A DNA stretch of 64,000 bases, taken from Henricia sp. BOLD:AAB3569. Its lineage: Eukaryota; Echinodermata; Asteroidea; Spinulosida; Echinasteridae. Position numbers and translations under genes: made by a program. Shown here one piece after another: positions 11,352 through 20,300 of the stretch. The stretch covers positions 1 through 64,000 of the forward strand of contig JBBELK010000058.1 in assembly GCA_037783545.1 (NCBI GenBank). Reading direction: 5' to 3'. Numbering within the stretch: position 1 is the stretch's first letter; each line of letters starts with the position of its first letter. The notes below the pieces were generated by a model that was given only the letters and a program-made list of their open reading frames with translations, searched no databases and was not told where the DNA came from.

Positions 11352-14300
11352 GTAACACAATGTTCAAGATCGTTTCACGGTTATTGCACAAAAATGCAGA
11401 ACTTTCAGTAGTGTTTTCAGGAAAAAACGTATTCCTTGCCCAAAACACCCAAACTATATATAAAATGAAAGGTCTTGGTGACAGGAAAAAGGCCTTAATT
11501 TGTGTTTTAGTTTTTCTTTTTTTTACACTTTGCAGAAGCCCAACTATTCCCTGAAATTTACCCTCGCCGGTCACACAAAGGCAGTTTCGTCGGTCAAATT
11601 CAGCCCCAATGGAGAATGGCTGGCCAGTTCCTGTAAGTACCATTTCATTGGTTTATGCAAGGACTAATGCTGGTTACCAGACTTGACGGGTTGAATAAAA
11701 TACATGATTTTTTTTGTATTGTGTCTACAGCGGCAGACAAACTTGTCAAGATTTGGGGAGCGTATGACGGGAAGTTTGAAAAGACGGTATCCGGTCACAA
11801 GCTAGTAAGTTCTTTAGAACAGAGTCGTATATAAATTTCTTTTGTGCCACTTCTTCACTAAATTAAAGGGACAAACTGGCTTTGTTGGGCTTTTTTGGGC
11901 TCAAAATAGACCCATACATGATTCTGAAAGTCTTTCGGAAATAGACTGAAGAGAACCTGAAAAGAAACCACCAAATTTGGCATTTTTTTAGCATTTTAAA
12001 AAAAATCGAGGTTAGTTTTATTTCCAGCCGTTTGGCCGTGTGATACAGTTTATTCCTGAAGTTTATTACTGCAGTACTGCATCAAATTCACCTCTGATTT
12101 TGTTTCAGAGTATTTGACAAAAGAGACTATTTATTCAGGTTATGAAACAAAGTAAAACATAACTCTGAAAAATCGAACAAAATTTGGACACAAAGTCCGA
12201 GAAACCGAAGCAAGTCTGAAACTCTGTTGCCCCTGCTCTTGGCCTTGGCCTTGGTGCCCTTTTGCAATCCTCCCATAGACATTTTCATTTTCCAATGGAA
12301 GTGCCCTCCAAAATACAAATGGCAGCGCCCTTTCTGTGACGAATTTCCTGCCCTACCGAAGCGAGTTCCACCGTGGACAGTCTACTGGACAATGTGACAT
12401 TGAGCCCCACGGCACACACACGTTGCCCGCCCAAAACCGGTACCGGTGCCGTGGAACTACCATTGTACGTTTGTGAAGTCAAACCATGAATGTCGGCTCC
12501 TCTACGGAAAACGGAAAAACCCATTCGGTCGTCCAGGCTGTCCAGTGAAATCTTCAGCAGAAAATGAGAGATATCCAAAGCAAAAAGCTGCTAAGTGAAG
12601 AGCGAATCATTTCCGACAAAGTTGTGAGTCTTGCGCGATAGTGAACGGCTGGTGTCTTAAACAGACAATAAAGACCCAGCTGGTTTAAACATTTTCTACT
12701 CTTGCCCTAGTCAGTTTCAGTGCACGTGGAAAAAGGGCACACACACAAAAACCAAAAATGCTCGAAAGCAATTGAAATGCAGTGTGACCAACCTGAGCAA
12801 AAAACAGCTTCGGAATTTGTCTAACTATTGAGAAAAGAGTCAAAACTGGTTTACAATCACTTCGCCCCAAAACCACTTTGCCCTGAACCACGGCCTGTGC
12901 ACGAAGTTGTTTTGGGGTGAAGTGGCATTTGGGCGAGGTAATGTCCGGACGAAGTGGTTTGGGGGCGAAATGGCCTTTGGGTGAAGTGCTTCAGGGTGAA
13001 GTGGTCCAGGGCGAGGTGGCTTTGGGGCGAAATGAATTTACGTCTCGCGAGACAAATATTAATTGTTTCGCTCATTTCTCAAAGACTATAGCACTTCAGA
13101 CAAAACCATTTCAGGGGAAGTTTTCTACCGTCATCGTGTTTATATTGTGTAAGTTAGGTGTAAATCTGTGAACATTTATGATTCCTCGAGACACCAATCA
13201 TGTATTCTACCTGTGTTATTGCTTTATTTCTGTAGGGGATTTCCGATGTTGCCTGGTCAAGCGACTCTCGCCTCCTTGTGTCTGCATCAGACGATAAGAC
13301 CCTCAAAGTGTGGGACTTTAACACCGTAAGTTTGATCTTGTAAATTATTTGTAATTTGCATATAAATTTACTTGCAAAATGCATGCAGTTTTCACCTTGT
13401 ACACGAAGGAATTTACTACCAGACCATTGCTTTTATTTTATTTTATTTTTTATTTATTTATTTATTTATTCACCACATCCATTTACAGGAATGGGATCAA
13501 TTAACATAGATACATACGAATAAATATCAACTTCTCAGTTGAATTAGAAACGGCCAGAGACACCGGGGAATCTCTCCCCTTGCTCTTCACGAAAGAATGC
13601 TCTGAGATCTTTAAAGTGCGTTACCGAAACCTAACACACTGGACCAACGGCTTTACACAAGTGTGATTAAGTGCCTCACTCAAGAGCTAAAGTGCCACAA
13701 CCCGTCACGGCCCGGAATCTAACCCACATTCTAGTACTAGCATAGGAACTTGAGTTCAACGCACTAGACCGCTTGGCCATGTACAGTTAACTGCTGTATG
13801 CATGGTAGGTGGTGTAAACAACTTTCAGGGGTGAAATTGGAGGAAAATATAAATTCCGGAAGGGGCTTGGCTTCCTTGGGGAGGGGGCGGGGAAGGGGGC
13901 AGGGGAGAGGCGTAAAGACCACAAAGACTTCATCTTTTTGGATCGTCTTAAACACCACCATCGTGCAAATTGCAATGTCAAAAACATTTTAACCAGGTAT
14001 CGCAAGAACCAGATTTGTTTTAAATATTTACCTTGTACAAATGTGGATAATATTAAAAATAATCTAGGCAACATCGATCGTTGAAGACGGTGAAGCGAAA
14101 GCAATGGGTAAAAGCGGTTCGGTGCCCACTGTTTGCCGCGTCGCGCCAGCCGCACACTGCACACGTGCACGCATCACACACCACATGCAACGCACGACCG
14201 TTGCCAGTTTACGATGCAGGCAAAGATGGCGCTTGCTTAGGGATTAGACTTGTTCACATCTGCTTCGCTACTCGTTGCAGTCTCGGTCTGCTCGCCGAGC

Positions 14301-17300: not shown

Positions 17301-20300
17301 ATTCTTTTCTTTCAAAAGGTTTTTGTAAACTCAGACGGCCCAAAACACGTATCACTAAATAAAATCTTGCTTAATCAAAAATAAGCAATCGAAATGTAAA
17401 AATTCACGATATTTTCTGAGCCGACAAGTAAATCTTTGAAGATCGTAAACTACATGCAGCAAAAGATATGCAACACGCACAGCAGCCGACGTACATGTAC
17501 GTAGGCCTACAGTGTACATACAGACCTCGCTAGCGATAGGCGAAACGCCATCTACCAAAAGTAGAGCTTGCAGACTTTTGTTTAGAGTGCCCAAGTTTCA
17601 AGCATTCATTTTCACATGAATCCACACTTGGGTCATCCATTCCAAATTGGATGAAGAATATGCTAGCAGAGAAATTTATTCAGGTCACGAAATTTTTATA
17701 ATTTTTTTTTCGTTTTTAGAGATAATCATGCATGTATTAAATATTGTAAAAAAACATTTTAGGTACCTGAATCACTTTCGGGTCGGTTGTAGACTTAAGA
17801 TTGGACAGAAAAATTGATATACAAAAAACAAAATCTCGCCCGTGTTATAGGAATAGGTGTTTTAGTCGTGTTGTGCCCGGAAGCTCAGATTTGATCTTTG
17901 CCACGAGACTTACATTGTCTATAGTACAATTATGAGATTTCGTGCATGTGACCCCAGATTTATTGCAATCACATCAAAATTGGTCTACAACGAGAATTCT
18001 CATTGTTTGATTGGATTACACTAAAATGGCAAAAAACATGAGACCCCATCTCGTCATCTTATTACAATCCATCTCATAAGCCCTTTGCTTGAAGATGATG
18101 CCTGGAATGTTCTGTGTGGCAAGCTTGTTTTTGATGCGTCCACTCGAACCACTTGGAGCATTCAGAGCGTCAGACACTTGACCCGCGACATACATGTTTG
18201 TCCAGGCCACAAGTTGATTATGACCTCGTAATTGTGTTGTCACAAAAGAAAGCAATGAAACCCTACAATATTTTCTTAACTTGTAAAGTCCTCGCATTCC
18301 TCAACAGGTTGATTTCAACCGTGACGGGTCTCTTATTGTGTCAAGCAGTTATGATGGTCTTTGGTAAGCAATTTCTTATTTAATATTAATAGGTCAATAT
18401 GTTAGATTAATTGCATCCACCAATGCACTCTAGATAGAGAATGTTGGAGTTTGTAACCAACGCTCAGTGGTTTAAGACATCGATTCCAGAATGAAAGGTC
18501 GTGGGTTCGAGTCCCACCTGATCACACAAAGAAATTGGCTAATTTTAAATACAAAGAGCTAAACCAAAAAAATAAAAAATTCGAACTTTTTCACTTTTTA
18601 ATTTAATGTTTTGGCAACATGAGCCCAATTTCCTTTTGTCCTTTTATATTTTTGTGTATGGGATTGTCTGCAGTGTTTTATTTCTTTAAAACTTGCATTA
18701 AAGATAGTATACATGATTAGTAAACTATTACAAATAGTTTTATCCCCTGTGTGATTGAAGATATGCATGATTAAAACCAACCTGAGCAAAAACCAGCTCC
18801 GTACTTTGTCTAACTTTTGAGAAAACAGTCAAAAAAGGGTTTGCAGTAATTTCGCCCCAAAACCACTTTGCCCTGAACCATGGCTTGTGCACGAAGTGGT
18901 TTGGGGGCGAAGTGGCATTTGGGCGAGGTAGTGTTTTGACGAAGTGATTTGGGGCGAAATGGCACTTGGACGAAGTGGTTTGGGAACGAATTGAATTTAC
19001 GTCTCGCGAGACGAAATATAATTGTTTTGCTCATTTCTCAAAGACTATGGCACTTTAGACAAAACCATTTCATGGGAAGTTTTCTCATTTCTCAAAGACT
19101 ATAGCACTTTAGACAAAACCATTTCAGGGGAAGTTTTCTACCGTCATCGTGTTTATATTGTGTAAGTTATGTGTAAATCTGTGAACATTTCTGATTCTTT
19201 GAGATACCAATCATGTGTACTGCCTTTAAACTCCCTTTTTCTTTAATTGTGTAGTCGCATCTGGGATACCGCATCTGGTCAGTGTCTGAAAACATTAATT
19301 GGTAAGTTAAAAACTAAGGTCTCTCTGATATTCATTGTTTTAATGCCTGCAGGTTTTGAAGCCTGCCAGTCCGCAGGGTTCTTCAGTTTTACCTCAACCC
19401 CCCATTTAAAATCGTCTACTCCGTAATCATGAAGAGACACAATTGCCCGCTGAGCGTCAGAAAGTGTTTTTAAGAAAATCGACTTTGAAGTTGGTCACTT
19501 TTTGAAACTAAAATTTTGCGCATTTCTATTTAGAGTCTATTTAGTAATATGTAATCTGTATGAAAAGTTGGGATCTTGAATTAAAAATCTGTACCAATAT
19601 AATATTAATTTAACCCTTAAATCGTAGCAATTTTTTCCCAAAGATATTTGTCTCTTCGTGAAAACGCGACACGCTGTGTTTGCCCCAGCGCGCCTTTGTT
19701 AATTCCATCTTCACAGACAGGCAAGGTGATCTTTCTCTCTTCGTGAAAATGGAACCTTTGTGATTTGTCTCTTCGTGAAAACGCGAAACGCTGTTTTTGC
19801 CCGAGCGCGCCTTTGTTAATTCCATCTTCACAGACAGGCAAAGTGATATTTTTCTCTTTGTGAAAATGGAAAATTTGACTTTTGTCAAATTTTTCCACGT
19901 GGCTAATTACAGTAATTAGACTTCTCGTTATATTTTCGACAAATGTTGTAGGCCGTGCAGTACTAAGTCGTTTTCGGCCAAAATCTCAAAATTGATGAAA
20001 ACGTGATATTTGGCCACTTCTGTCTCTTCGTGATGACAGTGACGATATATTAGTTATATCTTTTCTCCAAGTAACTACAAAAGTCAGATGATCTTAGACA
20101 AAAATTGCAACTAACATTGATGTTTTAGAGCACAAATTATTGGCCCGGTCAGCCCATCCAAACTTAAACAAAAAAGCATCCCATACACCCGCGACCATGA
20201 CAAGGGGGCAGGTTTTCATATTTAAATAATGTGGCAATTGAGCTCGTGCCAATGACGTCATTTTGGGAGTAAAACAATGCCGCGTCGTTGTGGAAGCAAT

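Follow-up and report, generated by a model that had tools for sequence, protein, structure and literature searches.

The WDR5 gene and the elements in its introns

The DNA analysed in this work, referred to as the window, is a stretch of 64 kb (C58:1-64000) in a genome assembly of 740.7 Mb, which belongs to an animal as judged by its genes. The window contains a WDR5 gene on the plus strand at about 11.2-25.3 kb, and in four introns of this gene (introns 3, 4, 5 and 7) a short mobile element ends 23-27 nt upstream of the splice acceptor. The placement of these elements, and of similar elements at other acceptors of the genome, is the subject of this report. Exons were located by tblastn with a human WDR5 sequence, and the conceptual protein matches the Pfam WDR5 beta-propeller with E = 3e-202. 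A second, allelic copy of the gene was sought with exons 1-3 as the query; with 40 candidates scored, these exons were found nowhere else, and for this reason no empty insertion sites were seen. The exons that follow the four introns are these:

13236..13325, plus strand: WDR5 exon 4, from tblastn with human WDR5; donor
16354..16443, plus strand: WDR5 exon 5, from tblastn with human WDR5; donor
16912..16995, plus strand: WDR5 exon 6, from tblastn with human WDR5; donor
19255..19301, plus strand: WDR5 exon 8, from tblastn with human WDR5; donor

The elements upstream of these exons, together with a further remnant in intron 3, are as follows:

11863..12786, plus strand: diverged, 3'-truncated relative of element B in intron 3, adjoining the family A remnant
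12790..13212, plus strand: family A element in intron 3, without its first ~80 bp and its terminal TTAA
15517..16326, plus strand: element B in intron 4, 810 bp, with TTAA at both ends (15517-15520 and 16323-16326)
16639..16881, plus strand: element C in intron 5, 243 bp, with long terminal inverted repeats and a 4-bp duplication, TTAT
18698..19229, plus strand: family A element in intron 7, a complete copy with TTAA at both ends and the terminal repeat TTAAAG(A/G)YAGTATACATGATTGGT

The preliminary description of this locus had assigned the four elements to three unrelated families, and this assignment holds: family A is present twice, elements B and C once each, and only A and B are TTAA elements. 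Family A, for which a first look gave 7298 candidates genome-wide, carries the inverted terminal repeat TTAAAG.YAGTATACATGATTGGT at both ends. In 30 fetched loci, the intron 7 copy included, both ends of that copy match those of most copies; the ends are mostly TTAA, and some right ends read TTCAA, TTTAG or TTTGA. The intron 3 copy of this family is decayed, and because its terminal TTAA is gone the position of its end is less sharp. Element B has terminal repeats of 16-18 bp (TTAAAGG..ACAC..CCGGC). Families A and B are presumably piggyBac-like miniature inverted-repeat transposable elements (MITEs); they share with such MITEs the short terminal inverted repeats and the TTAA ends and, in family A, very many candidate copies. 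Element C is unlike TTAA MITEs and is of another kind. Its target duplication TTAT lies at 16635-16638 and 16882-16885, and two further full-length copies in the window are flanked by ATAT and ACTT; three different duplications in three full-length copies indicate that it is not a TTAA element. The elements make up 30% of intron 3, 27% of intron 4, 52% of intron 5 and 60% of intron 7.

Between element and exon the following gaps remain, given with the outcome of a branch-site search for the word YTNAY with its A 15-50 nt upstream of the acceptor:

13213..13235, plus strand: 23-nt gap before WDR5 exon 4; no YTNAY at 15-50 nt
16327..16353, plus strand: 27-nt gap before WDR5 exon 5; CTTAC, its A 19 nt upstream
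16886..16911, plus strand: 26-nt gap before WDR5 exon 6, after TTAT; CTTAT across the element end and the duplication, its A at 28 nt
19230..19254, plus strand: 25-nt gap before WDR5 exon 8; no YTNAY at 15-50 nt

The acceptors before exons 4, 5, 6 and 8 end at 13235, 16353, 16911 and 19254, and the gaps first given for them were right within about one base. Modal ends of blastn matches to other loci of the same genome give gaps of 23 nt in intron 3, 26 nt in introns 4 and 5, and 25 nt in intron 7. The TTAA of element B itself ends at 27 nt, one base from the modal value; in intron 5 the gap is 30 nt when counted from the end of element C (16881) and 26 nt from the end of the duplication.

Among the 11 coding acceptors of WDR5, an element end lies at 20-30 nt in four, at 48 nt in one, at 57-58 nt in one and at 73-75 nt in one, and the other four have no element end within 90 nt. 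The end at 48 nt, before exon 2, belongs to a repeat of about 75 bp in intron 1 (11413-11487), for which 39 other matching places were found among the matches listed.

Distribution of element ends upstream of acceptors

An independent set of acceptors was assembled from whole-genome profile searches in which repeats were disregarded, with 83 myosin and 128 kinesin matches. From these, 161 exon rows (90 kinesin, 71 myosin) were used, mainly second haplotypes being left out; 117 rows were fetched as 350-base stretches and the other 44 lay within other fetched stretches. After 29 rows were dropped (acceptor unclear, match starting inside the exon, or second haplotype), 132 clear acceptors remained. 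A set of 148 acceptors adds to these the 11 of WDR5 and five of QSOX1, also in the window, where two of the QSOX1 exons are weak (E = 0.009 and 0.31). The choice of acceptors preceded the search for repeats and followed the splice signal and the reading frame, but it was not blind, some element ends having already been seen. Repeats were detected by blastn, with E up to 1e-4, against about 320 kb of the genome; same-contig matches were excluded (in the window, self-overlap only). An edge was counted when at least two matches ended together, several edges per acceptor being possible. The first counts of TTAA-type and other edges mixed window and independent acceptors, and the final counts come from the 132 independent acceptors alone.

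In the set of 148, right edges per 1000 acceptor-bases amount to 1.7 at 8-20 nt, 8.1 at 20-30, 2.7 at 30-40, 9.5 at 40-50, 6.8 at 50-60, and 2.7-5.1 beyond. Right edges with at least two matches number 3 at 8-20 nt versus 12 at 20-30 nt. There is a floor for repeat ends near 20 nt and no single spike above it. Repeats cover 35% of the sequence at 100-250 nt but 8% at 20-30 nt, and such a fall toward the acceptor is what a selective floor predicts.

The two classes of ends behave differently in the 132 independent acceptors. Of 19 TTAA-type right edges, 8 lie at 20-50 nt, where a uniform rate predicts 2.5 (p = 0.0017), and the other 11 at 50-250 nt. The eight near ends lie at 25, 28, 29, 35, 40, 41, 45 and 45 nt in eight different genes, those at 25, 28 and 29 nt being upstream of three myosin exons. 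Non-TTAA right edges, with 12 (at 9 acceptors) at 20-50 nt and 103 at 50-250 nt, are as expected (p = 0.83), and the near/far split differs between the classes (Fisher p = 0.0017). When the match threshold is raised to 3, TTAA-type edges number 8 near versus 7 far, and at 5 they number 6 versus 6. TTAA elements in general tend to end 20-50 nt before exons, and this tendency is real but modest.

Two controls accompany these counts. The nearest right edge falls at 20-50 nt in 19 of 131 acceptors versus 54 of 788 random anchors, which are biased to long unique stretches; because of this bias, within-intron comparisons were relied on. On the donor side, in a small sample of 41 donors, one TTAA-type left edge lies at 8-20 nt and another at 20-50 nt, compared with six at 50-250 nt.

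Two further loci, L012 and L016, are among the family A loci fetched by similarity and not for gene content. In L012 a complete family A copy ends 25 nt before an exon of Rcd1/CNOT9 (PF04078, E = 2.4e-33, for two joined exon translations). About 1.3 kb into L016 (on C161) lies an open stretch of 165 bp with acceptor- and donor-like ends, a possible exon that has no Pfam match; a copy of element B ends 22 nt upstream of it and a family A copy starts 11 nt past its donor-like end.

Target density near the acceptor

The zone at 20-50 nt is T-rich and has branch-site-like TTAAY words at 20-30 nt, and is for these reasons richer in the target of TTAA elements. Non-repeat TTAA occurs there at 1.30 per 100 positions versus 0.79 at 50-250 nt (1.65-fold, 132 acceptors). 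With repeats included, in the set of 148, the branch-site-like word YTAAY reaches 1.49-1.62 per 100 at 20-30 nt versus 0.34 at 200-290 nt, and at 20-30 nt it is about four times denser than past 100 nt. Counted per available host TTAA, element ends come to 8/46 near and 11/145 far in the independent set, an odds ratio of 2.3 (p = 0.10); the ratio was 2.0 (p = 0.18) when window and independent acceptors were mixed. Target density, together with the larger repeat-free share near the acceptor, accounts for about half of the roughly 5-fold per-base excess on a log scale, and the remainder is not significant.

The idea that insertion is guided to the region between branch point and polypyrimidine tract, which had been raised for WDR5 with a flat distribution of distances as its counter-test, stands in part. 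Ends of the TTAA type are not flat and are enriched at 20-50 nt, and ends of other types are flat over 20-250 nt; the 2.3-fold enrichment per TTAA falls short of significance. A guiding factor is not needed for the enrichment of TTAA elements near acceptors, although one may contribute to it.

The four WDR5 elements probably are short non-autonomous DNA elements that inserted independently of one another into introns already present, and ordinary causes would have brought them near the acceptor. Three such causes may be proposed, which would together account for much of the pattern. First, the introns of this genome are dense in short mobile elements. Second, as the distribution of ends suggests, insertions closer than about 20 nt would destroy the polypyrimidine tract or the AG and be removed, and the ends would for this reason reach down to the floor near 20 nt. 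Third, elements specific for TTAA meet the 1.65-fold more targets per base counted at 20-50 nt. The target duplication would leave a copy of TTAA at an unchanged distance from the AG; thanks to this copy the branch site there would probably be kept and the insertion tolerated.

Several observations weigh against this explanation. The share of WDR5 acceptors with an end at 20-30 nt (4/11) exceeds that of the independent acceptors (8/132, with at least two matches; p = 0.003), although this p-value is post hoc, the gene having been picked for showing the pattern. Introns 3 and 5 now have no intact TTAA end, and the cause that depends on TTAA targets does not directly cover them. The ratio of 2.3 per TTAA also leaves room for an extra insertion preference. 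A WDR5 gene with four such introns is regarded here as a tail event that was noticed post hoc.

Genome-wide counts and a possible preference for branch-site TTAA

A genome-wide test was made in which an element end, a gap and the acceptor word Y8NCAG served as a stand-in for gene annotation. Ends of the A type (CTRYCTTTAA) are followed by the acceptor word 142 times at 16-46 nt, 124 times at 47-77 nt and 131 times at 78-108 nt, and the mirror-image word, used as a control for the A type, occurs 106 times at 16-46 nt. The end KGCCTTTAA, present 60,950 times in the genome, is followed by the acceptor word 224 times at 16-46 nt versus 186 times at 47-77 nt. One-sided p-values are 0.013 for 142 against the mirror image, 0.16 for 142 against the two further bands and 0.034 for 224 against 186, all of them optimistic, since the counts include haplotype duplicates.

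The acceptor word matches only 8 of the 148 curated acceptors, and chance matches dominate: about 172 are expected per 31-nt band for 60,950 KGCCTTTAA ends (from 51 local matches) versus the 186 and 224 seen. Even a several-fold enrichment at true acceptors would therefore show only a small excess. Within the near band no specific peak at 23-27 nt was found among the 100 listed places per search, which is an insensitive test. The family A pattern has a bump at 24-29 nt (83 hand-deduplicated strings from 100 listed of 142), which was rejected as evidence because the mirror-image control shows one as well. These counts are compatible with the presence or the absence of a 2-3-fold effect, and they neither prove nor exclude it.

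A more specific possibility, which we regard as rather doubtful, is that TTAA transposons prefer the TTAA of branch sites beyond what TTAA density explains, and that the target duplication restores this word at the same spacing. The branch site would then act as a self-repairing landing pad. It is likewise no better than a tentative suggestion that element ends accumulate at the branch-site position genome-wide and that introns grow there without a cost to splicing. The near excess of TTAA-type ends, with other ends flat, the odds ratio of 2.3 per available TTAA, the 224 versus 186 KGCCTTTAA ends before acceptor-like words and the peak of TTAAY words at 20-30 nt all agree with such a preference. 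The excess per TTAA is not significant, however, and the 3' copy of TTAA makes a YTNAY word in only 3 of 11 TTAA-family ends (gaps 25, 28 and 40 nt). The family A-type counts are, moreover, near flat by distance, and their 24-29 nt bump is shared with the mirror-image control. No report of TTAA elements at branch sites was found in literature searches limited to open-licence papers.

Branch points

It had also been proposed that the branch points of the four introns probably lie inside the element ends, or that the elements supply branch points and are kept. The consensus words take mixed positions and favour neither proposal. In intron 4, CTTAC lies in the gap; in intron 5, CTTAT straddles the element end and the duplication, and the element itself contains two more YTNAY words; no YTNAY with its A at 15-50 nt upstream occurs in introns 3 and 7, the element end included. 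Of 13 other cases, some have YTNAY in the gap, some in the duplication, some in the element and some have none. Sequence alone does not place branch points, and a position inside the element ends is for this reason no more than a conjecture.

It is very improbable that the elements have been retained by selection because they contribute branch points or other signals for splicing. Introns 3 and 7, which have no YTNAY word at 15-50 nt, would fit this explanation, as would intron 5, where the word nearest the usual distance spans element end and duplication. Intron 4, however, has its CTTAC in the gap, and the element ends in introns 3 and 7 are themselves without the word. Retention would also predict a conserved element end, and that of the family A copy in intron 3 has decayed. 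Many metazoan branch sites, moreover, depart from the consensus.

Intron origin and comparison with known systems

Introners are themselves the intron, with splice sites recruited from the element, the duplication or the flank, as set out in PMC9860276. The WDR5 elements resemble these introners in their DNA-element features and their intronic location, and terminal repeats with target duplications occur in some introners as well. An introner-like origin of these four introns is nonetheless extremely improbable. The elements, of 243-810 bp, sit inside introns of 468 to about 3030 bp, and none of them carries or adjoins a splice site: in no case does an element boundary or duplication coincide with one, the acceptor gaps being 23-27 nt and the distance to the donor at least about 190 bp. 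No link to how introns arise was found for these elements, which fill 27-60% of introns longer than themselves without reaching a splice site.

In mammalian introns transposable elements are depleted near exons, which PMC3088655 reads as purifying selection; the zone given there for all DNA elements is 50 bp in human and 100 bp in mouse. Depletion close to exons is common to these mammals and the present genome. Unlike in the mammalian zones, ends of elements here are common at distances of about 20 nt and more, and those of the TTAA type occur at a higher rate per base at 20-50 nt than deeper in the intron.

Other features of the window and the assembly

A QSOX1-like sulfhydryl oxidase gene lies on the minus strand at about 30.6-35.4 kb, perhaps extending to 50 kb; it encodes an Evr1_Alr domain, and some of its exon matches are weak. 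Just upstream of a putative QSOX1 exon, a tRNA-like sequence at 50109-50168 on the minus strand (Rfam tRNA, 29.6 bits) is perhaps a tRNA-derived short interspersed element (SINE) near a QSOX1 acceptor. At 61878-62068 there is a tandem array of a 16-bp unit with 11.9 copies at 99%.

Elsewhere in the assembly, the contig pairs C438/C471, C353/C372, C219/C155 and C316/C80 have equal or near-equal myosin matches and near-identical upstream sequence, and both haplotypes seem to be present in parts of the assembly, where polymorphic insertions could then be scored. In the kinesin and pattern searches, near-identical matches that are evenly spaced or repeated (C181:1005480-1010664, C54/C517 and C195:1547607-1644596) suggest recent local duplications at these sites.

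Significance for intron evolution

The distribution of ends shows that mobile elements are tolerated as near as about 20 nt to a splice acceptor. Because the word targeted by an entire class of transposons overlaps that of the branch site, elements of this class come to lie more often in the most sensitive part of introns. If it is true that the target duplication protects the branch site, insertion of this kind would be a simple way for introns to lengthen from the 3' end.

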